Source: Paucibacter sp. B2R-40 (lineage in GTDB: Bacteria; Pseudomonadota; Gammaproteobacteria; Burkholderiales; Burkholderiaceae_C). From it: a DNA stretch of 64,000 bases. This document shows, piece after piece, positions 1 through 22,292 of the stretch; the stretch's first letter is position 1, and every line of letters starts with the position of its first letter. The translations under genes were made by a program, and so were the position numbers. Where the stretch lies: NCBI RefSeq assembly GCF_025717555.1, contig NZ_JAJIRP010000001.1, positions 809,400 to 873,399 on the forward strand. Reading direction: 5' to 3'. The notes under the pieces were generated by a model. It was not told the origin of the DNA, did not search any database, and saw only the letters and a program-made list of their open reading frames with translations.

Positions 1-636
1 CAGGCCACGGCGGTGCAAGCGGTCGCGCCATCCCTGGTGCTGCGCCCAGACCGCCAGCACGGAAGCGCCGGCCAAAGCAACTTCGTACTTGGCCAGGGCG
101 CCCAGCCCGAGCAGCAGGCCCAAGGCGATCCAGGCCCGCCAACTCCGGTGGGCAAAGGCTCGCCAGCAACAGGCCGCAGCCGCCGCGACGCACAAAAGCA
201 AAGCGACGTCATGGTTGAAATAGGACAGGCGCTGCGTGTAGAAGCCTATGCACAACGTGCCCAGCAGTGCCAGATTGGCGCGCTGCTTGCCCAGCAGTTC
301 TTGCACTAGGCGGTGGCTGCACAACAGGGCCAAGCCGGTCACCGCGCCGGCGGCAAGATAGCTGACCCATTCATGCAGGCCGAGCAGTTGCACCAGCGGC
401 CACAGCAGGGCTGTAGGCAGCGGCGGATGTTTGTAATAGCCCCACTCGAGCGAGCGCACCCAGCTCAGTTGCTCGGCGTTGTCCACCGGGGGCGAGCTGC
501 TGCTGAGCCACAAGAGTGTCAGCCAGGTCAAGGCCCAGAGCGCCAGCCAGGCCGCCACTGGGACGGCCCGCAAGCGCTGCGCCAAGGCTGTGCTGGAGCG
601 CGTGAATGGGTCGAGAAGGCTGTAGGTTTTGCTCAA
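1..636 (-). CDS. Glycosyltransferase family 39 (ArnT/PMT-like) membrane protein, partial
   Basis: The frame reads 212 codons without a stop and runs off the left edge, so the C-terminus is missing. The protein has a hydrophobic N-terminal segment and then a GT39 signature: an acidic D-N-A-E-Q loop followed by W-G-Y-Y-K-H-P-P-L-P, the periplasmic loop that binds the lipid-linked sugar donor in dolichyl-phosphate-mannose transferase relatives. Several membrane segments follow, including a second loop with Y-F-N-H-D. I start it at a TTG (634-636) because no ATG or GTG lies between it and the in-frame upstream stop. It is divergent from the GT39 gene at 1059 and may serve the same glycan pathway. 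Donor and acceptor cannot be told from sequence. Confidence 0.8.
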   Translation of the reverse strand, partial: MSKTYSLLDPFTRSSTALAQRLRAVPVAAWLALWALTWLTLLWLSSSSPPVDNAEQLSWVRSLEWGYYKHPPLPTALLWPLVQLLGLHEWVSYLAAGAVTGLALLCSHRLVQELLGKQRANLALLGTLCIGFYTQRLSYFNHDVALLLCVAAAAACCWRAFAHRSWRAWIALGLLLGLGALAKYEVALAGASVLAVWAQHQGWRDRLHRRGL

Positions 637-11833: not shown

Positions 11834-11846
11834 GAGGGCCGATCAA
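11817..11846 (-). promoter_or_regulatory. Candidate sigma-70 promoter of psuKG
   Basis: Read on the minus strand, TTGATC (11846-11841) and TTAATA (11822-11817) are separated by 18 bases. The -35 box overlaps the last codons of the upstream DUF2059 gene and the -10 box lies between the operator arms. Predicted transcription start is near 11810, leaving a short leader before the ATG at 11788. Confidence 0.4.
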
Positions 11847-12400
11847 GGTGCAATCGATGCGGCGCGCAGCTTCAGGCCCACCGCCTGCGTCATCGTTTGC
11901 AGTTTGGGATTGATGGCCGGGCCGCTGTCTTCGGCGACTTTTTCGCCCAAGCTTCGCTCGAGTTCCGGCGCCAGCTTCTCGAACTTCTTCTTCACCGGCG
12001 ACTCCAGCAGCGCAATGATCTGGCGCAACTCCTCGTCGGTGAACTGCTGCAGCAGCACGGGGCTCAGCGTCGGTTTGAGCAGGCGCTGCGCGCTCTGGCG
12101 CGCCAAGGGCGTGGCCTCATCGACATAGGTCTGCACGTCGACGCTGATGTCCTTGAGCGTGCGGTCGCGCTTCTCGGCGCTGACGCGGCCCTGCAGCGCG
12201 ATGCGGGCCTGCTCCATCGCGCTGGCCGCCGGGCGCTGCACCATCACCACCGCCACATCATCGACATGCCAGAGCGTCAGCAGCTTGTCGACCAGCGGCT
12301 GGCGGGGGTCGGTGCTGGCTTGGGCCTGGGCCGCGCCGCACAAGAAGCTGGCGCACAAGGTGAGGGCGGTCAGGCCAAGGGTTTGCTTGAGAGTTTTCAT
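11843..12400 (-). CDS. DUF2059 domain-containing exported protein
   Basis: 185 residues from the ATG at 12400. A clean signal peptide ends in A-Q-A near residue 27. The helical C-terminal half matches DUF2059: P-T-L-S-P-V-L-L-Q-Q-F-T-D-E-E-L-R-Q-I-I-A-L-L-E-S-P is the typical block where the helix pair around Y/F-x-S-P is conserved. The family is periplasmic and of unknown function. It lies 22 bases downstream of the FadL-like gene in the same direction, so it may be the last gene of the C39/FapF-like operon. The psuKG promoter starts inside its 3' end. Confidence 0.8.
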   Translation of the reverse strand: MKTLKQTLGLTALTLCASFLCGAAQAQASTDPRQPLVDKLLTLWHVDDVAVVMVQRPAASAMEQARIALQGRVSAEKRDRTLKDISVDVQTYVDEATPLARQSAQRLLKPTLSPVLLQQFTDEELRQIIALLESPVKKKFEKLAPELERSLGEKVAEDSGPAINPKLQTMTQAVGLKLRAASIAP

Positions 12401-12422
12401 GGTGAAGTAGGCAACAAGGGGC

Positions 12423-14045
12423 TCAGAAATCATGGGACATCGTCACGCCGGCATAGCGGATGCGGATGCCGCCATTGATGTCCAGGCCGGCATAGGGGTT
12501 GTAAATGACGTTGAAAAAGTTATTGCAGTTGAGCTTGCAGCTGGTGTTGGCCGGCAGGTCGAACTTGCCATGCGCATAACTGGCGGCCACATCGAAGCGG
12601 GTGCCGCCTTTGGTCGTGTAGCCCAGGCCCAGGCTGTTGATGGCCAGGTCCGGCATCGGCGCGATCAGGTCCAGCGCCGAGCGCGGAATCGAGCTCTTGC
12701 GCGGCTCGTAGCCGGCGCGCACGACGATGCTTTTGCCCACGCTCAACTCCATGCCGTAGCCAAAATGGACCGGGCTTTTGTAGTCCCTGGGAATGATCAG
12801 CTTGCTGGCATCGGCCTGGCCGAACAGGCGCGCCATTTGCAGCAACGCGATCTGCTGGTCGAACTGGAAGGTCATCTTGTCCCAGCGCTTCCAGTTGGTC
12901 CAGTTGGCGTCGATATTGAACTGCAAAAAGGACAAGGGCTTGACCTTGATGCCGACCTGCGCATGCTCGGGGAAAGGCAGCACCAAGGTCACATTGCCGC
13001 TTTGCACCTCGGGGATGGAGGTCGGCATGCCGAACGTGGCCGCAAGAATTGGCCCCTGCAGACTGTTGTACAAACCTTCGACGAACTTGCGCAGCATGGG
13101 CTCGGCGCTGAAAGTGAAGCGCCCCGTCATTGCGGTCTTGGAGCCGAACTGGTAGCTGGCGCCAAAAGCGAACCAGTCCTTGGGTTCCCACAGCATGCCG
13201 ATATTGAGCGTCGGGTCGACCGGCGCGGTCAGCTCAAAGTCCATATTGCCGGCCTTGCCAAATGGCCGCACACGCCCTTCTTTGCCGCCGCCGCAGAGGC
13301 CGAAGGCCAAGGTATCGAGCGGGTTGCCGTTGTCGCCGCACCAGGCGTCTTGCAGCTTGCCGATGGTGCCGAGTAACTCATTGGGCATGCGCATATCGGT
13401 GTTGAGCGCAAAGCCCTGGTGCGCGATCGGCACGCCCAGGCCGAAGCTCAGAGAGTCGCTGAACTTGTAGGCGGCGGTGGGCGACAAATAGACCAGGCGC
13501 TGAATCACCACTTTGCGGCCGTCAAAGCGCGCTGGGTCATTGGGGTCCTTGGTGCGGTCAATGCCCACCGCCATTGGCACATAGGAGGCGGTGGCGAAAG
13601 TCCATTTCGACTCGGCCTCGTGAAAGGCCAGGCCCAGGCCGGCGCCGATCGCGCTGGGCATGGGCACGGGCACCGGGCCGTAGATGGGCAGGAACAGCGA
13701 ACTGCGCACGTTGTCGCCGGTGTGGGTATTGTTGAGCGGGTCTTCCTTGAAGCCGCCGATGTCAAAGCCCTCCGGCTGATGAAAGCTGGCATAGGGCTTG
13801 ATGCTGGCACCGAAGATCGAATCCTGCTTGCGGTCGTGCTTGATCCGGGTCAGACCGGCCGGGTTGAAATGGATGGCGTCAATGCCCGGCGGATCGGCCA
13901 CCACCGCATTGCCCAAAGACATGGCTACGACGCTGGCGCCGAGGTTGTCGGTCAAGGCAGCCTGACCGGGCTTGGCCAGCACCAAGACCAAGACGAGCGC
14001 GAACAGTTTGCTGGGCCGACAAGGGCCCACCCTAACGCTGATCAT
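12423..14045 (-). CDS. OmpP1/FadL-family outer-membrane beta-barrel protein
   Basis: 540 residues with a signal peptide ending near residue 29 (P-G-Q-A-A). The mature N-terminus has the FadL hatch signature: N-L-G-A-S-V-V-A-M-S-L-G-N-A-V-V-A-D-P-P-G-I-D-A-I-H with F-N-P-A-G-L-T. Alternating strands end in M-S-H-D-F, a terminal Phe as required by the BAM machinery. A long cysteine-containing loop near residue 230 (W-C-G-D-N-G-N and F-G-L-C-G-G-G-K) is unusual for FadL. FadL proteins import hydrophobic compounds. Here it lies 7 bases after the FapF-like gene, so it may instead serve the secretion locus, as an equivalent barrel seems to in Acinetobacter fil-type loci. Confidence 0.85.
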   Translation of the reverse strand: MISVRVGPCRPSKLFALVLVLVLAKPGQAALTDNLGASVVAMSLGNAVVADPPGIDAIHFNPAGLTRIKHDRKQDSIFGASIKPYASFHQPEGFDIGGFKEDPLNNTHTGDNVRSSLFLPIYGPVPVPMPSAIGAGLGLAFHEAESKWTFATASYVPMAVGIDRTKDPNDPARFDGRKVVIQRLVYLSPTAAYKFSDSLSFGLGVPIAHQGFALNTDMRMPNELLGTIGKLQDAWCGDNGNPLDTLAFGLCGGGKEGRVRPFGKAGNMDFELTAPVDPTLNIGMLWEPKDWFAFGASYQFGSKTAMTGRFTFSAEPMLRKFVEGLYNSLQGPILAATFGMPTSIPEVQSGNVTLVLPFPEHAQVGIKVKPLSFLQFNIDANWTNWKRWDKMTFQFDQQIALLQMARLFGQADASKLIIPRDYKSPVHFGYGMELSVGKSIVVRAGYEPRKSSIPRSALDLIAPMPDLAINSLGLGYTTKGGTRFDVAASYAHGKFDLPANTSCKLNCNNFFNVIYNPYAGLDINGGIRIRYAGVTMSHDF

Positions 14046-14052
14046 GCTCGGC

Positions 14053-15069
14053 TCAGAAATTCAGCGGGATATTGCAACCCAAGGTGAAGGCCGGCGCATC
14101 CGGCCCCAGGCCGACGCCGACCGACACATTGACGGTCGTCTGTGGCGAGGCGCGCACCCCCAGGCCAAAGCTCAGCAGGCCCGAGGTCTGGGTGGAGGTA
14201 TCACTGGTCTTGCCGTCGGCCAGGATCAGCCTGGTCTTGGCCGAGATGGTTTCCTGGAAGGACACCGTGGTCGAGACCTTGTAGGACAGCGCATAGGCAA
14301 AGCCCATGCCGAAGCCGAAGCTGGCGCCCGGGTCGACGCCGGTCAGCGTGGCGCTGTTCAACTGCTGGCTCAGATGGCGCACCGGCGCGCCCAGCGTCAG
14401 CGAGACCGAACCGAACAAGGCCACTGGGTCCATCACCTTGGAGGTGTTGGCACCCAGGGTCAGCGCGGTGAAGCCCGAGCCGGTGCTCAAGCCCTGGCCG
14501 GCGGTGACCTTGAAGGGGCTGCGTCCGGTCGGCAGGCGCAGCGAGGTGGAGGTCGTGAAGGAGGGCATGTCGCGGCTCAAGGCCAGTGGCTGCCAGCGCA
14601 TGCCGAGGCTGATGTCGCCGAAGCCATTGCTCATGCCGGAGTAGGTCTCCGACTCGGAAAACTTGCTGACCAGGGGCACGACGACATTGGCGGTCATGTT
14701 GTCGCGCAGGCCGTAGTCGGCCGAGAAGCTGTTGGTGACGGTGTGCGAGCGGGTGTTCTGGATGCTGAACAGCGTCAGCGTCGAATCGGCGAACCTGGCG
14801 TTGATCTGCTGCGCGCCGATATAGGCATAGCCGAAGTCATAGGTCAGGGCCATCTTGCCCTTGCGGATCAGCGAATACTGCTTGTCCTGCGCACTCAGTG
14901 CGGCTTTGAGAATGGCGGTCTGGTCGGTGTCGCTGTCTTGCTTGGCCAAGGCCTCGCGGGCGGCGTCTTTGCTGTCGGTACTTTGGGCTTGGGCGGGTGC
15001 GTGGGCAGCGGAGAGCAAAAGCACAGCGATGGAGACGATACGGGTGGGGGAAGAGAGCAGGGATTTCAT
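14053..15069 (-). CDS. FapF-like outer-membrane beta-barrel with N-terminal helical segment
   Basis: 338 residues. A signal peptide ends near residue 29 (A-Q-A). Residues 31-70 are polar and helix-forming (D-S-K-D-A-A-R-E-A-L-A-K and A-A-L-S-A-Q-D-K-Q-Y), then K-M-A-L-T-Y-D-F-G-Y-A-Y-I-G begins a barrel of about 12 strands ending in P-L-N-F. A periplasmic helical plug before a 12-strand barrel is the architecture of FapF, the export pore for Pseudomonas functional amyloid. The barrel also resembles the generic transporter family PF13557. It starts 2 bases after the C39 peptidase gene, the same pairing as fapD and fapF. I infer that it exports the neighbouring motif-bearing proteins. A solute porin is the alternative. 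Confidence 0.75.
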   Translation of the reverse strand: MKSLLSSPTRIVSIAVLLLSAAHAPAQAQSTDSKDAAREALAKQDSDTDQTAILKAALSAQDKQYSLIRKGKMALTYDFGYAYIGAQQINARFADSTLTLFSIQNTRSHTVTNSFSADYGLRDNMTANVVVPLVSKFSESETYSGMSNGFGDISLGMRWQPLALSRDMPSFTTSTSLRLPTGRSPFKVTAGQGLSTGSGFTALTLGANTSKVMDPVALFGSVSLTLGAPVRHLSQQLNSATLTGVDPGASFGFGMGFAYALSYKVSTTVSFQETISAKTRLILADGKTSDTSTQTSGLLSFGLGVRASPQTTVNVSVGVGLGPDAPAFTLGCNIPLNF

Positions 15070-15071
15070 GG

Positions 15072-15839
15072 TCAGCGTCGGAGATTGAAAATGCCAAAGT
15101 TGGCTTGGACCGCGTTGCGCAAGGCTTCGCTGTTGTCCGGCAGGGGAAGACTGGCGTGGCGGCGCACCAGGTCGTCATCGATGACGCCCAGTTCTTCGTC
15201 GCCAATCGCCAGCAGGGAAAGGGTCTTCTGGCCCTGGGCTTTGCCCGGGGTCAGTAGAAATAAGGTGTTGCGGTCCCAGAGTTCTTCGAATTCCTGGGTC
15301 GAGAAGACGATGTGGCCCATCGCCGGGTCGGCCAAAAAGACGCGGCCATTGCGGATGCCGCGCAAGACCACGAAGTGTTTGAAGCCGGCATAGTCGATCG
15401 GCACGATGGCCGGCTGGTTCAACTCAGTCAGGTCCTTCATGGAGGCGCGAAAACCGGCACCCTCGGCGCCCAGGCTGACGACATAGCGCTTCATGTCCAA
15501 GAGCGAGAAGCCGCGCCGCTCGATGATCTTGTCGCGCTCGCCGAAGGCCAGCATGCCTTCCATCGCTTGCTGCTCATTGACCTTGATGCCGAGATAGTTG
15601 TTGATCACGGTCACCAGCGCGGCCGAGCCGCAGCTGTAGTCATAGGCCTGGTGGACGATGTTGCGGAATTTGATTTCCGACAGCGGCTCAATCTGCACCG
15701 ACAGCGGCGACACGCCGCCACCCACTTGCGCCATTGGCAAAGCGATCCGGTCCTCCGGCTGGTCTTGGAACGGATGTTGGGTATTCACCGTCGCGCCGCC
15801 AATCAACGCCGCCACCGCGCCGAGCAAAATCATCCACAT
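15072..15839 (-). CDS. Stand-alone periplasmic C39-family cysteine peptidase (FapD/FilB-like)
   Basis: 255 residues. An N-terminal hydrophobic segment (1-18) acts as signal or anchor, so the enzyme faces the periplasm. The C39 fold is complete: Q64 as oxyanion Gln six residues before C70 in Y-D-Y-S-C-G-S-A-A-L, H155 in F-K-H-F-V-V-L, and D171 in L-A-D-P-A-M-G. C39 peptidases cut double-glycine leader peptides and are normally fused to ABC exporters. This one has no transporter domain, like FapD. It directly follows five genes whose products carry a leader-like motif after their signal peptides, so those are its likely substrates (inference). About 70 residues beyond the Asp are extra and unassigned. 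Confidence 0.88.
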   Translation of the reverse strand: MWMILLGAVAALIGGATVNTQHPFQDQPEDRIALPMAQVGGGVSPLSVQIEPLSEIKFRNIVHQAYDYSCGSAALVTVINNYLGIKVNEQQAMEGMLAFGERDKIIERRGFSLLDMKRYVVSLGAEGAGFRASMKDLTELNQPAIVPIDYAGFKHFVVLRGIRNGRVFLADPAMGHIVFSTQEFEELWDRNTLFLLTPGKAQGQKTLSLLAIGDEELGVIDDDLVRRHASLPLPDNSEALRNAVQANFGIFNLRR

Positions 15840-15864
15840 ATCAGTAACCTCAAAATCTTCATGC

Positions 15865-16326
15865 TTACTTGGCCCAGAGCAAGACCTGACCCTGCATTTG
15901 CACCGTGCCGTTCAACTGGATCTGACCCAGGCTGGCCGCGATCGGCGCCAGCGGATCGCTTTGCACGGCTATCGCCTTGACGCCGAAGTCCTTGAAGCCC
16001 ACAAAGGTCGGCAGCGTCAGCTGAATCACGTCACCGATCTCCGCCGGCCCGGCCACGGCCTGCAGCGTCAGGCCCAGCAAGTCCAGCGTGCCGCTGAGTT
16101 TGTGCAGCAGCAAATAGCTGGTGTTGCCGCCGACCTGAAACCCCAGGCTGACGCGGTTCTCGGACGTGGCACCGGTGTTGAGCTCCAAATGGGCGTTCAA
16201 GACAATGCCGCCCCGCCCCGACACGCCGCCCAGCTCCTCATCGCTCAAGGGATTGGCGGCCTGAACGCCAAGTGGCAGCAGGCAGGCTGTGTGTAAAACG
16301 AGGCCAAGCAGAAAACGAGTATTCAT
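15865..16326 (-). CDS. Exported C39-locus substrate candidate, paralog E (153 aa)
   Basis: Signal peptide to about residue 23 (V-Q-A), then L27-S-D-E-E-L-G-G-V-S-G-R-G-G40, the closest of the five paralogs to a true double-glycine leader because it ends in G-R-G-G. The rest is a small strand-rich domain with few charged residues. It ends N-G-T-V-Q-M-Q-G-Q-V-L-L-W-A-K, like the W-A-R and W-A-H ends of the paralogs at 18077 and 18731. It is the last substrate gene, 25 bases before the C39 peptidase. I relate it to DUF6160/FilA-like proteins with moderate certainty. The function is unknown. Confidence 0.75.
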   Translation of the reverse strand: MNTRFLLGLVLHTACLLPLGVQAANPLSDEELGGVSGRGGIVLNAHLELNTGATSENRVSLGFQVGGNTSYLLLHKLSGTLDLLGLTLQAVAGPAEIGDVIQLTLPTFVGFKDFGVKAIAVQSDPLAPIAASLGQIQLNGTVQMQGQVLLWAK

Positions 16327-16329
16327 CGC

Positions 16330-17256
16330 TCAGGGTCCCGTCTTCAGCCGTATATCGAGGTACTGGATTTGCATGCTGCCGATACGGCTGCTGCCCAGAT
16401 CAAGGCTGGGGCCGACATCGCTTTTGAAAGCGATGTTGTCAATCAGCAAACTGCCGGTCGGCGCCTGACCTTGGCTGGGCCAGGCCAGATTCAGATGCAG
16501 GAAGCCGCCGCTCTCGGGGCTGCTGATGGCGTTGAGCAACAGCGGCTGGCGGTCCAGATCGGCGATGCGCCAGAGGCTGCTGCCGAGTTGGCCGTCGGCC
16601 GTCGCTGCGGCCAGGTGGATGCCGCGCAGGCTGAATTGCTCGGCCGCACCGGGGCTGTCAAACAGCGCCGTGTCGGCACGCCCGCGCGGACGCAGCAGCA
16701 GGGCGCCCACGTCCAGGCGCAGGCCCAGGCCGAAGGCAATGCCCTGCTCATTCGGGTCGGCGCTGGGCGCCAGGCTCAAGCTGCCGCCATAGCTGCGCAG
16801 GTCTTGCAGCAGCAGTGCGCCGGCATTGAAGTTCGGCGCCGCGCTATTGTTCTTGTCGATCAGGCTCAGGTCGGCGGCAAACTGCCAGCTCAAGGCTCCG
16901 TTGAGATTGAGCGGCTCGCTCAGCACGACCCGGTCCGGCATGCCGACGGCCGGCGCCTTGATCAGGCTGAGCTGATAGGGGTCGGAGAAGGTGGCGGCGA
17001 GATCGTCCGAGCGCGACAGCGCAAAGTTGGACAGCGCCAGGCCGGAGCCGTCCGCCGCGCCCAGTCGCAGCGTCAGCGGGCCTTGCAGCGCAAAGCCGCG
17101 CAGATTGAATGCAAAGCCGTCACGGCCCTGGACACGGGCCAACTCGTCATCGGAGATCGGCGTCAGCGCCAGGGCCGCCGATGCAAATGCCAGCCCAACA
17201 AACGCCAACAGAGCCCGGCTGGCTCTGGTGTTTTGCTTCGGCGTCAGGGCGTGCAT
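16330..17256 (-). CDS. Exported C39-locus substrate candidate, paralog D (308 aa)
   Basis: I start at the ATG at 17256. The frame stays open to 17523, but that extension overlaps the upstream gene. A signal peptide ends near residue 30 (A-L-A), followed by I34-S-D-D-E-L-A-R-V-Q-G-R-D-G47. The remaining 260 residues are rich in Leu, Asp and Gly and strand-forming, with repeated L-x-L-x patterns that suggest a beta-solenoid or jellyroll-like surface protein. The end, M-Q-I-Q-Y-L-D-I-R-L, corresponds to the last strand of the shorter paralogs but lacks their Trp. There are 3 bases between its stop and the next gene. Confidence 0.75.
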   Translation of the reverse strand: MHALTPKQNTRASRALLAFVGLAFASAALALTPISDDELARVQGRDGFAFNLRGFALQGPLTLRLGAADGSGLALSNFALSRSDDLAATFSDPYQLSLIKAPAVGMPDRVVLSEPLNLNGALSWQFAADLSLIDKNNSAAPNFNAGALLLQDLRSYGGSLSLAPSADPNEQGIAFGLGLRLDVGALLLRPRGRADTALFDSPGAAEQFSLRGIHLAAATADGQLGSSLWRIADLDRQPLLLNAISSPESGGFLHLNLAWPSQGQAPTGSLLIDNIAFKSDVGPSLDLGSSRIGSMQIQYLDIRLKTGP

Positions 17257-17261
17257 GAGAC

Positions 17262-18077
17262 TCAACCACCCGGCTTGACGAGTTGCAGCGGCAAATTGGG
17301 GGGCAGGACGGCGTTCAGATTGCCGGCGCTGAGCTTGTCGCGCCAGTTCATCCAGATGCCGGCCTGCGCCAGATCGGGTGCGGCCATGCCGGCCACGGCC
17401 GCCGGGAACTGCACTGCACTTTTCAGCACCGCCAAAAAGAGATCGCGGCTGGGCCCGGCCGCGTCGCCGGCCTGCAGGCTGCCAATCTGCGCCAGGCTGA
17501 AGGGGCAGGCTGCGACCGCGCAAGTGCTGCCGTCCCAGCGCTTGCCGCCCAGCGGGTCTTGACGCGAGTCGAGGATATTGGCGCTTTGGCTGTCGGCAAT
17601 CGCCAGCGAGCCGCTGAGGGTCTTGGCGTTCAGGCCGAAGGCGCCGCTGACGCCCTCGAAGCCCAGGCGCATGCCGACGATTTCACGCTCACCGGCAGCG
17701 CTGGCCGGGCGGTAAACCAGTTCGAAGTAAGGGTTGCTCAGGGCGACGGTGCGCTGCGCATCGCCCAGATCGCTGCGGCCAAATTGCAGCCGCGCGATGT
17801 CGATATCGGCGCCGCTGCCATTGCGCGGGGCATAGTTGTATTCGCCCAGGCGCAGATTGGAGAAATTGGCGCTCAGCTTCAGATCGGCGTTCAGCGTCAG
17901 GCGCGAAAAGTCCAAGCCGTTCGAGCTGGTGTTGCTGATGGCGACCATCGCCTGACCCCAGACGCGCGCCAACTCGGCGTCCGGCAGCGGCGCCAATTGG
18001 GCTTGCGCGGCGGCGCTGCCGAGCAGCGTCAGCCAGAGCAGCACACTTCGAATGCTGGCGGGCCGGATGCTCATCAT
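17262..18077 (-). CDS. Exported C39-locus substrate candidate, paralog C (271 aa)
   Basis: The start ATG at 18077 shares one base with the upstream stop (TGATG). A signal peptide runs to about residue 27 (A-Q-A), then L31-P-D-A-E-L-A-R-V-W-G-Q-A-M44: the leader-like motif is kept but the final D-G is replaced by A-M. The early mature part (F-S-R-L-T-L-N-A-D-L-K-L-S-A-N-F-S-N-L) is strand-rich. A possible disulfide pair is C-A-V-A-A-C near residue 190. It lacks the W-A-x end of its paralogs. If the C39 enzyme cuts after G-R/Q, this protein would still be a substrate. Confidence 0.72.
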   Translation of the reverse strand: MMSIRPASIRSVLLWLTLLGSAAAQAQLAPLPDAELARVWGQAMVAISNTSSNGLDFSRLTLNADLKLSANFSNLRLGEYNYAPRNGSGADIDIARLQFGRSDLGDAQRTVALSNPYFELVYRPASAAGEREIVGMRLGFEGVSGAFGLNAKTLSGSLAIADSQSANILDSRQDPLGGKRWDGSTCAVAACPFSLAQIGSLQAGDAAGPSRDLFLAVLKSAVQFPAAVAGMAAPDLAQAGIWMNWRDKLSAGNLNAVLPPNLPLQLVKPGG

Positions 18078-18613
18078 CACCGCGCCCACATCCAGATTTT
18101 CGAGCCTTGCAGATCGATATTGGTGAAGGCAAAGCTGCCGAAGGAGGCGCTGCTATTGCCCATGGTCACCGAGCCTATGGCCAGGCTGGGGCTCAGCCTG
18201 TGGTCGAGCCCGGCATTGGGCAGCGCGAACTGGATCACATCGCTTCGGCCGTCGTAGGTGCCGCTGCTCAGCAAGCGGCTGATGCCGGCCGCACCGTCGG
18301 CGCCGTAAGCAGCCATCGAGTTACTCATCGCCGTGCCGAAGCTGGCCGAGTTCAGCAGGTCCACCGTCATCACGAACATGCCGCGCAGCGTGATGTTGTT
18401 GAAGGAGATGCTGCCGCCATCGGGGTTGGCGGCACTTTTGTTGCTGTAGCTGAACGAGCCGATTTTGATGTCCAGGTCGGCTGCCAGCGTGACGCCGTCG
18501 CGGCCGTGCACCTCGGCCAGGTCCGCGTCATCCAGGCTGCTCATAGCGCGCGCCGCATTGCTCAGCAAGAGCAGCGCGAAGGCGACGAGCATCAGCAGAT
18601 GGCAGCGGGGCAT
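18077..18613 (-). CDS. Exported C39-locus substrate candidate, paralog B (178 aa)
   Basis: Signal peptide to about residue 23 (A-R-A), then L27-D-D-A-D-L-A-E-V-H-G-R-D-G40. The mature part aligns closely with paralog A: D-L-D-I-K-I-G-S-F, then S-I-S-F-N-N-I-T-L-R-G-M-F-V-M-T, then S-D-V-I-Q-F-A-L-P-N-A, ending L-Q-G-S-K-I-W-M-W-A-R. B therefore looks like a shortened duplicate of A without the roughly 35-residue glycine-rich insert. It is separated from A by a terminator-like hairpin, so it is probably expressed less. Family naming as DUF6160-like is from memory and moderately certain. Confidence 0.78.
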   Translation of the reverse strand: MPRCHLLMLVAFALLLLSNAARAMSSLDDADLAEVHGRDGVTLAADLDIKIGSFSYSNKSAANPDGGSISFNNITLRGMFVMTVDLLNSASFGTAMSNSMAAYGADGAAGISRLLSSGTYDGRSDVIQFALPNAGLDHRLSPSLAIGSVTMGNSSASFGSFAFTNIDLQGSKIWMWAR

Positions 18614-18640
18614 GTGAATTTGGTGTTAGGTCAATTCAGT

Positions 18641-18681
18641 CTTTAGAAAAATTCGGCCCGGCAAACAGTCGCCGGGCCGAA
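18641..18681 (-). terminator. Rho-independent terminator between paralogs A and B
   Basis: TTCGGCCCGGC (18652-18662) and GCCGGGCCGAA (18671-18681) form a perfect 11-bp GC-rich stem with an 8-base loop. On the minus strand the stem is followed by TTTTTCT. It lies inside the operon after the first gene, so it should end most transcripts there and let a fraction read through. Confidence 0.82.
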
Positions 18682-18690
18682 CATTTCTGC

Positions 18691-18710
18691 TTTCCTAATT
18701 GCTTAGGAAA
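18691..18710. repeat. Perfect 8-bp inverted repeat before the terminator
   Basis: TTTCCTAA and TTAGGAAA flank a TTGC loop. It sits 20 bases downstream of the paralog A stop, just before the terminator hairpin. An mRNA 3'-end stabilising stem or a protein site are both possible. There is no U-tract after it. Confidence 0.5.
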
Positions 18711-18730
18711 ATTTCAAGTCAAGCAGTGAC

Positions 18731-19372
18731 TCAATGTGCCCAGATCCAGAACTTGGAGCCTTGCAGGTCCATGTTGTTGATGGCGATGCTGCCGAAGGAC
18801 TTGTTGCCCACGCTATTGCCCAGGGTGATGCCGGCGACGGTGACGCTTGGGCTCAGCTTGGAATCCAGCTTGGCGTTAGGGAAGGCGAACTGAACGATGT
18901 CGCTGGCGCCGTCATAGATGGCCGCGCCGGTTTGTGCGCCGAAAGTGTCAAAGCTGGCCGAGGTCAGTGCCTTCAGTTGACCAGCGACTGCAACGCCACC
19001 TGCGGTTGTGCCTGCGCCAGGAGGAACGCCGGCTGCCAATGACTTGCCGCTGTCCGCATCGGCTTGGTTGAAGCCCATGTGGGTCGCAATGGAATCAGCC
19101 ACATTGCTGACGAAGGCACCCTTGTTCAGGATGTCCAAGGTCATCACGAACATGCCCTTGATGCCGATGTTGTTGAAGGAGACCGAACCGCCGTTGGTGT
19201 CCGTGTCGGTGTACTTGAACGAACCGATATTGATGTTCAGGTCACCGGCGATCGAGACACCGTCCTGGCCGCTGACTTGCGCCAAGGCGCCGTCATCAAT
19301 AGCGGTCATGGCGGAAGCCGACAGGGAAGCGGCGAGCAGAGCTGCGACGGCGGAAAGTTTGAATGCGTTCAT
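18731..19372 (-). CDS. Exported C39-locus substrate candidate, paralog A, probable major product (213 aa)
   Basis: The ATG at 19372 has a strong GGAG ribosome site eight bases upstream, and a signal peptide ends near residue 21 (A-S-A). The motif is I25[13 protein letters not shown]38. Then come [26 protein letters not shown], a Gly/Ala-rich insert (about residues 115-145), [14 protein letters not shown], and the end [12 protein letters not shown]. It is first in the operon, is followed directly by a terminator, and has an AT-rich untranslated leader, all signs of an abundant structural or surface protein. It resembles DUF6160/FilA-like proteins. A pilus or fibre role is inference. Confidence 0.8.
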
Positions 19373-19682
19373 TTGAATATCTCCAGAATTGATTAATTGA
19401 TTAATTGAATGATTGAAAAACTGCTTTGAAACTTCTCTCTTGCACGCGCCGCCCATGGTCTCTAGTCACGGGTTTGGCTCATTGCAGCGCGGGTGCTTGT
19501 GGGCTCTCTGGCTGCGCCGAGTTGTCTGCGGCGTGGACGAATGATGCGGATTAGTTGGCAAAAACTAGTGACTTTGCGAGCCATGCTCTTGGCTTTGCGT
19601 GCCCTCCGTTCGGTGGGGAGGAGGAACCATTAGAGGGTTTCTATGCTGTCTCAATCATCAGTTAGGGGCGCGCACTTGCGCT
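19373..19682. other. Leader and promoter region of the C39-locus operon
   Basis: These 310 bases between the araC-type gene and paralog A hold no gene. Near the coding start the leader is AT-rich, with an 8-bp unit AATTGATT repeated in tandem (19388-19405). Farther upstream are the 21-bp-spaced direct repeats listed separately. I could not fix a -10/-35 pair with confidence. Confidence 0.5.
19572..19603. promoter_or_regulatory. Direct repeats spaced 21 bp, candidate AraC-family operator
   Basis: CTTTGCGAGCC (19572-19582) and CTTTGCGTGCC (19593-19603) differ at one position and start exactly 21 bases apart, two helical turns. AraC-family regulators bind direct repeats with this spacing. The repeats sit between the AraC-type gene and the operon, 200 bases ahead of the paralog A start. 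Confidence 0.5.
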
Positions 19683-20753
19683 TCAGACGGGGCTGCGCAG
19701 ACGGCTCGGCGAATGGCCAAACCAGCGTTTGCAAGCGCGGTAGAAATTGCTCGGATCGGCGAATCCCAGCGCGAAGCTCATCTCGGTGGCGGTGATGCAG
19801 CCGCGGTTCAAATAGCGCGCGGCCAACTCGCGGCGGGTCTCGTCCAGCAGCTTGTTGAAGCTGGTGCTTTCTTCCAGCAAGCGGCGCTGCAGCGTGCGCT
19901 CGCTCATATGCAGTTGCGCGGCAATGGTCTCGCGCTTGGGGTCGCCCTTGGACAGTTCCTGGGTCAGCAATTGCCGCACCCGCACCTGGATGCTGCCACC
20001 GCGTTGCAGCATCGCCTGGCTGGCGCTGCGCTCACACAGCGCCGCGACGCTGGCATTGGCCGTGGGGATGGGGGTGCGCAGGTCGGCGCTGTCAAAGACG
20101 ATGCAAAAATGTTCTGCGTTGAATTCGAGTTCGCAGCCAAAGACCTCGATCCAGCGCCCGAGTTCAAGCGGGGCCGCAAAGGGGTAGCTGATTCTGAGTG
20201 GCCGCACCCGCCGGGCGGTGGCCCAGTTGAGCGACTGCAAGACCACATTGGCGATGAAGTCATAGCGCTGCAGCGGGGTGGTCCGCAGGCCTTTGAGGAT
20301 GTCGACGCGGAGCTGGGTCTGGGCGCCGTCCTGGCTCAATTCCATGCAGACCGCTGGCGACAGCAGGGCCGAAAAACGCAGCAGGTATTGCAGCGCGTCG
20401 CCCAGATCATGGGCCGCCAGCACCAGATGCGCCAGCAGGCCAAGCGCAATCAGCGGATGTGCCGGCACACTCAGGCCTATGGCTGCATCGCCGGTACGCG
20501 CGGCGGCCAATTCCCAAGCGCCGCTGTAGGCGTCAGACAAGACCCGGGGGTCGGACTCCTCGGGGTCAAGCCCTTGTTGATCAAGCAGGCTCTGCAGACA
20601 CAGACCGCGCCCGGCAAAGGCCTGCGCCATCGCCTTGTGCCAGCTATTCGTCAGGCCTGCCGCGCCGGCGGGCTTGTACTCCTGTGCGCGCGGTGCCGCC
20701 TGCGCTGTATCTTGGCGCTGTGACATCGCTGCGAACTGGCCGGCGTTTTGCAT
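19683..20753 (-). CDS. AraC-family transcriptional regulator (OruR-like, PF12625 N-terminus)
   Basis: 356 residues. The N-terminal 200 residues match the arabinose-binding-type domain of OruR/ArgR-like AraC proteins (V-P-A-H-P-L-I-A-L-G-L-L-A-H-L, L-G-D-A-L-Q-Y-L-L-R-F). The C-terminal 100 residues carry the double helix-turn-helix: I-A-A-Q-L-H-M-S-E-R-T-L-Q-R-R-L and E-M-S-F-A-L-G-F-A-D-P-S-N-F-Y-R-A-C-K-R-W-F-G, ending S-P-S-R-L-R. It is the gene directly upstream of the C39-locus operon and reads in the same direction, making it the likely regulator. The ATG at 20751-20753 is used; an internal Met at 20726 is possible. Confidence 0.88.
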   Translation of the reverse strand: MQNAGQFAAMSQRQDTAQAAPRAQEYKPAGAAGLTNSWHKAMAQAFAGRGLCLQSLLDQQGLDPEESDPRVLSDAYSGAWELAAARTGDAAIGLSVPAHPLIALGLLAHLVLAAHDLGDALQYLLRFSALLSPAVCMELSQDGAQTQLRVDILKGLRTTPLQRYDFIANVVLQSLNWATARRVRPLRISYPFAAPLELGRWIEVFGCELEFNAEHFCIVFDSADLRTPIPTANASVAALCERSASQAMLQRGGSIQVRVRQLLTQELSKGDPKRETIAAQLHMSERTLQRRLLEESTSFNKLLDETRRELAARYLNRGCITATEMSFALGFADPSNFYRACKRWFGHSPSRLRSPV

Positions 20754-20885: not shown

Positions 20886-20981
20886 GTTGAGGGCGGGGCA
20901 GGGCTAGGTGCTGCGAATTTGTGCTTGCAGCTTCGGCGCGACAATGCCGAGCCTCCCGCCTCCTCCTATTTCCAATTGCCC

Positions 20982-22292
20982 ATGCACACCCTGGCTCAAT
21001 TACGCTCCGGCGAACTCGCCGGCATCAGCCGGCTCGATCTGTCTTGCGGCCTGACCGAGTTGCCGCCCGAAGTCTTCACCCTGGCAGATAGCCTGGAAGT
21101 GCTCAATCTATCGGGCAACGCGCTCAGCAGCCTGCCCGCTGATTTGCCGCGTTTGCACAAGCTCAAGGTGCTGTTTTGCGCGGAGAACCGTTTCACCGAA
21201 GTACCCGAGGTGCTCGGCGATTGCGCGTCCTTGAGCATGGTTGGCTTCAAATCCAACCAGCTGACGAAGCTGCCCGCCGCGGCCCTGCCGGCCAAGCTGC
21301 GCTGGTTGATCCTGACCGATAACGAGTTGCGTGAACTGCCCGGTGAACTGGGCGAGCGGCCGCATCTGCAAAAGCTGGCCTTGGCCGGCAATCAATTGAG
21401 CCAGTTGCCGGACTCGATGGTGCAATGCCGGCGCTTAGGCTTGCTGCGCATGTCGGCCAATCGCTTCGAGCAGATCCCGCCCTGGCTGTTGGACTTGCCC
21501 AACTTGGCCTGGCTGGCCGTCGGCGGCAACCCCTGGGGCGCGCAGCGCGAGTCACGCGTGCTGGAGCAGTCGGCTTTGCCCGATCTCGATTGGGCGGCGC
21601 TGCAGATGGGCGGGCTGCTCGGGCAGGGCGCGTCCGGCGTGATCCATGCGGCGCATTGGCCTGCCGGTCCGGCGGATGGGCGTGAGTTGGCCGTCAAGGT
21701 TTTCAAGGGCGAGGTCACCAGCGATGGCTGGCCGCACAGCGAATGGGCGGCCAGTCTGGCGGCCGGCCTGCATCCGCACCTGATCTCGGCCAGCGCGCGC
21801 CTGACGGCTCATCCGCTGGGCGCCGAGGGCCTGGTGATGCCGCGCATAGCGCCGGAGTTCAGCACGCTGGCCGGCCCACCCAGCCTGAGCTCCTGTACCC
21901 GCGATGTCTACCCGGCCGCAACGCGGATTGACGCTGAGGTCTTGCAGCGCATGGCGAGCGGCGTGGTCGATGCTGCTCGCCACTTGCACCACCAAGGCAT
22001 CTCGCATGGCGATCTCTATGCGCACAATCTGCTCTGGAACGGCAAAGGCGACATCTGGCTGGGCGACTTCGGCGCCGCCAGCCTCTTGCCCGAGCAGCTC
22101 AGCCGGGCCGAGCGGCAGGGCTATGAGCGGCTCGAAGTCTTGGCCTTCGGCCATCTGCTGGAAGAATGGCTGAGCCGCTGCCCGGATGCGCCGCCCGTCG
22201 TGCAACAGTTGCAAACAGCTTGTGTGAGCCCTGAGCCGAAAGAGAGGCCGCTGTTTGCGGAAGTGGCCGCCGCGCTGGGCTCAAAAACATGA
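20982..22292 (+). CDS. Leucine-rich-repeat protein kinase (eukaryotic-like)
   Basis: 436 residues from the ATG at 20982. Residues 15-185 hold about seven LRRs of the bacterial L-x-x-L-P type (for example S-L-E-V-L-N-L-S-G-N-A-L-S-S-L-P). Residues 205-436 form a protein kinase fold: a glycine loop G-Q-G-A-S-G-V (about 213-219), K238 in L-A-V-K-V-F, the catalytic loop H-G-D-L-Y-A-H-N (342-349, with HGD in place of HRD) and D362-F-G. No membrane segment is seen, so it should be cytosolic. LRRs probably select a partner and the kinase phosphorylates Ser/Thr, or it acts as a pseudokinase-like sensor. The target is unknown. Its stop abuts the convergent LuxR gene. Confidence 0.88.
   Translation: MHTLAQLRSGELAGISRLDLSCGLTELPPEVFTLADSLEVLNLSGNALSSLPADLPRLHKLKVLFCAENRFTEVPEVLGDCASLSMVGFKSNQLTKLPAAALPAKLRWLILTDNELRELPGELGERPHLQKLALAGNQLSQLPDSMVQCRRLGLLRMSANRFEQIPPWLLDLPNLAWLAVGGNPWGAQRESRVLEQSALPDLDWAALQMGGLLGQGASGVIHAAHWPAGPADGRELAVKVFKGEVTSDGWPHSEWAASLAAGLHPHLISASARLTAHPLGAEGLVMPRIAPEFSTLAGPPSLSSCTRDVYPAATRIDAEVLQRMASGVVDAARHLHHQGISHGDLYAHNLLWNGKGDIWLGDFGAASLLPEQLSRAERQGYERLEVLAFGHLLEEWLSRCPDAPPVVQQLQTACVSPEPKERPLFAEVAAALGSKT

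Follow-up and report, generated by a model that had tools for sequence, protein, structure and literature searches.

A candidate Sec-plus-C39 pilus secretion operon in Paucibacter sp. B2R-40 with double-glycine-type leaders behind Sec signal peptides

C39 peptidases occur as domains of ABC exporters such as LahT and PCAT1, and a C39 gene that stands alone among genes for exported proteins raises the question of what the enzyme cuts, and on which side of the inner membrane. We addressed this question for a gene cluster of Paucibacter sp. B2R-40 (contig NZ_JAJIRP010000001.1) at positions 11843-20753 of a stretch of 64,000 nucleotides, referred to below as the window; coordinates are positions in the whole window, and gene order is read along the minus strand. 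An earlier note on this DNA had listed five exported paralogues with a shared short motif, a C39 peptidase, two barrels, a DUF2059 protein and an AraC regulator, and all of these genes were found where it had placed them, on the minus strand. We consider it likely that the locus is a pilus secretion operon that combines Sec export with C39 processing, in which a FilB-like peptidase would trim the subunits, a FilC-like barrel would export them and the first substrate, S1, would polymerise.

The genes run in the order AraC, S1, S2, S3, S4, S5, C39, FapF-like barrel, FadL-like barrel and DUF2059, and intergenic gaps from S2 through DUF2059 are at most about 25 bases. The likely start codons of S1, S3 and S4 lie at 19372, 18074 and 17256; counted from the likely starts, the substrates span the 153-308 aa that had been proposed. 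The features are as follows.

19683..20753, minus strand: AraC-family regulator (Arabinose_bd and HTH_18; PF12625, E 4.5e-30, Pfam)
18731..19372, minus strand: S1, DUF6160 protein of 213 aa, probable major filament subunit and relative of PDB 9XFV (DUF6160 and 9XFV matches)
19265..19309, minus strand: S1 leader, 15 residues that adjoin the signal peptide, with the cut predicted at Q36|D37 (motif; the 9XFV chain start aligns to S1 residue 37)
18651..18682, minus strand: terminator-like hairpin of 14 bp directly 3' of S1
18077..18613, minus strand: S2, DUF6160 protein of 178 aa, pilin-like
18500..18544, minus strand: S2 leader, MSSLDDADLAEVHGR
17262..18074, minus strand: S3, DUF6160-related exported protein of 270 aa
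17952..17996, minus strand: S3 leader, LAPLPDAELARVWGQ
16330..17256, minus strand: S4, DUF6160-related exported protein of 308 aa, predicted mostly beta (family match; structure model)
17122..17166, minus strand: S4 leader, LTPISDDELARVQGR (motif; short helix 36-41 in the predicted model)
15865..16326, minus strand: S5, DUF6160-related exported protein of 153 aa
16213..16257, minus strand: S5 leader, ANPLSDEELGGVSGR
15072..15839, minus strand: FilB-like stand-alone C39 peptidase with an N-terminal hydrophobic anchor and Q64, C70, H155 and D171
14053..15069, minus strand: FilC-like/FapF-like outer-membrane barrel
12423..14045, minus strand: FilD-like FadL-family barrel
11843..12433, minus strand: DUF2059 exported protein (DUF2059, E 5.3e-6)

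Leaders of the exported paralogues and the start of a solved filament

Each of S1-S5 carries a 15-residue leader immediately after its Sec signal peptide (signal peptides were called by a crude home-made rule, not by SignalP), with hydrophobic residues at -15 (Ala in S5), -12, -7 and -4, Gly at -2 and Gln, Arg or Gly at -1. Judged by its sequence, the short motif of the earlier note is thus a double-glycine-type C39 leader that follows a Sec signal peptide. According to PMC10885120 and PMC6363468, recognition of the leader by ComA involves Phe-15, Ile-12, Leu-7 and Ile-4, and the co-crystal of LahT with a leader has pockets for positions -12, -7 and -4. Cleavage by the C39 enzymes of PMC10885120 follows GG, GA or GS, and a narrow pocket accounts for the small residues before the cut in PMC6363468.

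To avoid circularity, homologues were sought using only the regions behind the leader as queries, and the leader was then looked for at the start of the aligned part, in a window of +/-10 residues. A canonical leader was present in 169 of 215 homologues, at an offset of 0 or -1 in 163 of these 169. The other 46 comprised seven proteins with a leader in which the alignment began late, nine with Ala at -2, four that were cut or unmapped, one that was masked and 25 fusion proteins, which have a leader-like motif mostly with Ala at -2. In 126 distinct leaders, every -12 residue is L, I or M and every -10 residue is D, E or N, the latter not demanded by the filter; M or L occupies -15 in 101 of them, and the residues at -1 are Q (69), R (36), G (12), A (8) and S (1). 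The register is fixed because 12 orthologues carry a literal GG (nine of S5 and three of S4, in loci such as L058, L059 and L078). Since spacing and position are constant in homologues that were found without using the motif, the motif is not a chance match. In 80 related loci it occurs in 135 of the 317 signal-peptide open reading frames (ORFs) matched by any of nine fil models (barrels, C39 and AraC included) and in 8 of the 893 that belong to no fil family, four of these eight being the fusion proteins. Two further signal-peptide ORFs with the motif, close to fil operons but read from the other strand (L052:10602-11165 and L055:13149-13592), are possible extra substrates.

Searches of the five substrates with family models matched DUF6160 (PF19657) in all cases (Pfam E-values 5.5e-21 for S1, 2.2e-18 for S2, 3.6e-4 for S3, 5.1e-3 for S4 and 1e-3 for S5), with S1 and S2 alone passing the gathering score and S3, S4 and S5 below it. 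An alignment of the S4 family with the S1 family (97% probability) spanned the signal peptide, the leader and the start of the mature part. The Paucibacter sp. B2R-40 genome has five DUF6160 genes, every one inside this fil-like locus; a sixth match (E 0.97) was rejected as a peptide-deformylase-like frame, named by eye. A C-terminal stretch like FGS.aI.nIDLqG is common to S1 and S2 (window 18734-18799 and 18080-18145) and to fusion proteins described below, and is possibly a second export or assembly signal.

The predicted cut can be compared with a solved structure. PDB 9XFV, 'pilus-like-alpha', is a pilus-like filament from an environmental sample whose subunit aligns with S1 at about 70% identity over 171-177 positions (E 7e-74). 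The cut prediction had been fixed and coded before this match was found. Chain residue 1 corresponds to S1 37, the predicted +1 residue, and the last residue to S1 213, the C-terminus; the listed chain sequence also starts at the predicted +1. The entry is numbered 38..210. S1 orthologues of 210 aa with a 37-residue prepeptide occur in L050, in L153 and, as one of two, in L152 (211 and 38 for the other), which indicates that the 37 residues missing from 9XFV are a signal peptide and a leader. S1 thus shares the sequence/fold of the 9XFV subunit as well as its span from +1 to the C-terminus, and on this likeness it is probably the main filament subunit, which supports the extracellular fibre that the earlier note had suggested. 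The title and molecule name of the 9XFV entry mention neither a gene cluster nor a secretion route.

The peptidase, the barrels and related loci

The C39 protein of 255 aa matches PF03412 (1.9e-19), FilB (4.1e-75) and FapD (5.4e-38) in Pfam and NCBIfam. Its Q64, C70, H155 and D171 are invariant across 8 FilB-type proteins, and the family scan returned C39 families only, with no ABC domain, as the earlier note had read from the sequence; the fusion of C39 to an ABC transporter that marks bacteriocin exporters of the peptidase-containing ABC transporter (PCAT) type is therefore lacking. The best PDB match is LahT147 (6MPZ, E 8e-8), by a narrow lead over the next C39 domain (2.5e-7). In the 6MPZ alignment the Cys, His and Asp and the oxyanion-site Gln are present with conserved spacing, and the distances from Gln to Cys (6 residues) and from His to Asp (16 residues) are those named for LahT147 (PMC6363468). 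The FilB-like protein thus resembles the peptidase domains of LahT, ComA and PCAT1 in its family and catalytic residues and in the leader anchors at -4, -7 and -12 of its neighbours, which also have Gly at -2. It differs from them in having no ABC exporter, so that it would act after Sec export, and in that the residue before the cut is usually Gln or Arg. An N-terminal hydrophobic stretch is a predicted anchor. Together with a filament that starts behind a C39-type leader, these features support processing outside the cytosol, as had been proposed.

Family matches also bore out the remaining assignments, including AraC and DUF2059. The FapF-like barrel matches FilC (1e-79) and FapF (3.7e-21) in NCBIfam, and matches the solved FapF with E 2e-19, the aligned part being residues 147-337 only; the FadL-like protein matches Toluene_X (2.6e-38) and FilD (9.2e-123). 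Because the NCBIfam bit scores are all far below the curated cut-offs (252.7 against 475 for FilB, 268.7 against 630 for FilC and 410.4 against 970 for FilD), we regard the cluster as a homologue of the Fil system and not as its named equivalent. The Acinetobacter fil genes (FilA-FilD of NCBIfam, a 'putative pilus system') likewise cluster a homologous C39, a FapF-like barrel, a FadL-like barrel and a DUF6160 substrate (L114, L128); the present locus differs in having five DUF6160 genes, AraC and DUF2059 in the same cluster. In the literature examined we found no biochemistry of a Fil peptidase; the Acinetobacter protein FilF is discussed as a vaccine antigen.

Related loci were collected by running a FilB alignment against 84,980 species, each represented by a single genome; at least 593 stretches matched, at least 586 of them relatives, and the best 80 were kept. 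These come from Roseateles, Aquabacterium, Ideonella, Duganella, Massilia, Rugamonas, Marinobacter, Pseudomonas, Acinetobacter, Hahella, Bermanella and others. A FilC homologue is present in 80/80 and FilD in 78/80, the two without it being contigs of 3.9 and 7.2 kb. Thirty-four of the loci (L050-L083) are labelled Burkholderiales, except L054, which is labelled only Proteobacteria. All 34 have substrates, 29 have an AraC homologue (absent from L050, L053, L057, L068 and L082, the first four being short or cut contigs) and 32 have a DUF2059 homologue. Four or five substrates occur in 28 of the 34; the expanded, length-diverse set that the earlier note had thought unlike Fap is thus present, but it is not special to the window. 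In the other 46 loci one substrate stands beside FilB in 20 and none in 26, and AraC and DUF2059 (0/46) are absent from the retrieved stretch. In survey genomes like those of L084-L129 the substrates lie elsewhere. Pseudomonas-type genomes have, in separate parts, a substrate-FilB-FilC-FilD group, a cluster like S3 to S5 and a DUF6160 gene close to a gene homologous to this AraC, with 3-6 DUF6160 matches scattered over several places.

FilB, FilC and DUF6160 co-occur both in the best 80 loci and among 398 genomes surveyed from the phylum, where strong FilB matches (E < 1e-70) were found in 9 genomes and DUF6160 (E up to 0.01) in 11, all 9 within the 11. The earlier note would have given up its proposal had C39 and FapF-like genes never stood with motif-bearing genes; the nine genomes point the other way. 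A family survey gave a C39 of the FilB/FapD kind in 30 of 299 genomes (9 with E < 1e-60), and S1-type genes were found in 9/18 genomes of the genus. From these counts the system is widespread but patchy.

The fusion proteins lie near the fil operon (L071:14086-14928 and L080:11987-12814, with equivalents, labelled by script, in 25/26 loci L058-L083), mostly in Oxalobacteraceae. They consist of an MshE-type c-di-GMP-binding domain, a hydrophobic segment, the leader-like motif and a DUF6160-like C-terminus; in the two tested, the c-di-GMP domain NF053729 matched with E 3.9e-17 (L071) and 6.7e-16 (L080). Such a fusion suggests c-di-GMP control of the pilus. None of the three NF053729 matches in the window genome is such a fusion.

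Comparison with Fap and the substrate of FapD

The Fap system of Pseudomonas (FapABCDEF) also has a periplasmic C39, FapD, beside a FapF barrel. According to PMC5557850, FapD and its catalytic Cys are needed for FapC secretion, the FapD target is unclear and canonical C39 sequences are lacking in Fap proteins; its mass spectra contain no FapE peptides within the first ~70 residues and give no FapA processing. The substrate was 'yet to be determined' in PMC6173800 (2018), and a review of December 2025 (PMC12822426) says only that FapD is 'thought' to process FapF and the N-terminus of FapE.

In seven fap loci with FapE above the NCBIfam cut-off (L130-L134, L137 and L138), the sequence directly after the signal peptide reads ...[IV]ELKD.E[ML]A.LRG[RK]|[YF]VMPG, which gives L at -12, M or L at -7, L at -4, G at -2 and R or K at -1, the register of the Fil leaders. 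The FapE of an eighth fap locus, L135, scores under the cut-off and reads EVPEHELAEMRGR|YALPN. A cut near residue 40, as predicted, agrees with the mass spectra, although it is not enough to account for the 70-residue gap. Leader-like stretches also occur in FapA of L135:11669-12205, L137:11792-12898 and L138:11843-12322 (IEPLGDADFARVSGG; AELSDSDFAGVTSG), all three with a FapA family match (below cut-off in L135); the pattern used found none in L130-L134.

All FapD-like loci from the survey were fetched, giving 39 C39 genes in 37 loci, and shuffled sequences served as the null. A signal-peptide protein with a strict leader neighbours 30 of the 39 genes, against 0.84 expected, and per protein the strict leader occurs in 36/115 against 0.85 expected. 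Several of these leaders end in RGG; one extra counted match, VTYWKLVGLLGG in L141, stands beside a good one and is probably chance. A FapF/FilC-type barrel is present in 37/37 loci, the weakest in L144-L146. A Fap-like cassette made up of an Asn-rich protein, a short leader-like protein, C39 and a FapE-like protein is tandemly duplicated in L047:7931-13367.

The window shares the C39 and the FapF-type barrel with Fap by homology, although neither reaches its NCBIfam cut-off (FapD and FapF), but its probable fibre subunit belongs to DUF6160: searched with E up to 1, the FapB and FapC models matched none of the ten window proteins, while they do match fap locus L137 (1.2e-120 and 1.1e-82). The likeness to Fap is therefore in the machinery and not in the fibre. 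Based on these results we lean, with some reserve, towards a single and widespread secretion class built of Sec, a periplasmic C39 and a FapF/FilC-type barrel, in which a bacteriocin-type double-glycine leader behind the Sec signal would act as a periplasmic sorting and activation signal, Fil pili and Fap amyloids would be two fibre types, and FapE, perhaps also FapA, would be the FapD substrate, cut at RG[RK]|[YF]. Since PMC12822426 already suggests the FapE N-terminus, FapE as a suspected substrate is not new; relative to the literature searched, the recognition register and the exact FapE bond are.

Proposed route and its alternatives

In the route that we favour for the Paucibacter locus, the AraC regulator probably controls expression of the operon. 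S1-S5 would reach the periplasm via Sec, with signal peptidase cutting ahead of the 15-residue pro-leader, and a membrane-anchored periplasmic FilB would dock the leader and cut after -1. Removal of the leader may free an N-terminal strand and license export, and the trimmed subunits would exit through the FapF-like barrel FilC, S1 then polymerising into a 9XFV-type, pilus-like filament. S2-S5 would probably be minor, base or tip parts, and FilD and DUF2059 accessory. That FilB cuts, that subunits leave through FilC, what S2-S5 contribute and in which order the steps occur are what we infer from the gene content, leaders and filament start described above.

Several points weigh against this route. 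Position -1 is mostly Gln or Arg, as opposed to the GG, GA or GS of described C39 enzymes (PMC10885120, PMC6363468), and another periplasmic protease could make the cut in place of FilB. The 9-kb flanks of FilB yielded no substrate homologue in 26 of the 46 loci L084-L129, and nine of the 39 FapD-like C39 genes lack a strict-leader neighbour (L035, L040, L043, L044, L045, two in L143, L145 and L146); L035 and L043 carry a leader missed by a later filter and the L143 pair has Gln at -4, and all were kept as misses. The S1 model is only middling in confidence (pLDDT 70.5, pTM 0.54). The deposited 9XFV chain could start where density starts, and the entry is S1-like only.

The atypical residue before the cut would also fit a motif that serves as a docking or secretion signal for the FilC barrel or a periplasmic chaperone and is removed by a general protease or in the course of export, with FilB acting elsewhere, for example on FilC; cleavage of FapF is raised as an option in PMC5557850. 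We hold this to be improbable: the motif keeps the C39-leader register at -12, -7, -4 and -2 and pairs with C39 genes across distant taxa, and the active-site Cys of FapD is required for FapC secretion (PMC5557850).

The leader might instead stay on the subunit, 9XFV starting at +1 as the leader is disordered or unmodelled. Cryo-EM models often lack disordered ends, and the deposition is environmental, with no accompanying paper found in the literature searched. This too seems unlikely to us, given that the chain and the listed sequence begin exactly at a bond predicted beforehand and that the first strand of the predicted S1 model runs from residue 39. An operon mainly for lipid or hydrocarbon uptake, with FadL-type and uptake-type barrels and with DUF6160 proteins handling lipids in the periplasm, is very unlikely, as the structure of a close relative of S1 is that of a filament, the solved FapF is matched by the FilC-like barrel and the pairing of C39 with leader would be left without explanation.

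If the Sec-plus-C39 route is correct, it would define a periplasmic use of double-glycine leaders, link 9XFV, a filament from an environmental sample, with a gene cluster and an export route, and name an exact bond to examine for FapD, in FapE and in Fil pilins; Fil genes are present in Acinetobacter and Pseudomonas.

Two further features of the window may be mentioned. Hairpins similar to that behind S1 occur in relatives' loci behind 5/53 S1/S2-type genes and 0/91 other substrate genes, a hint only at possible attenuation that would leave S1 in excess. Adjoining the AraC gene, positions 20919-22292 (plus strand) encode leucine-rich repeats followed by a protein-kinase-like part, the translation being judged by eye.

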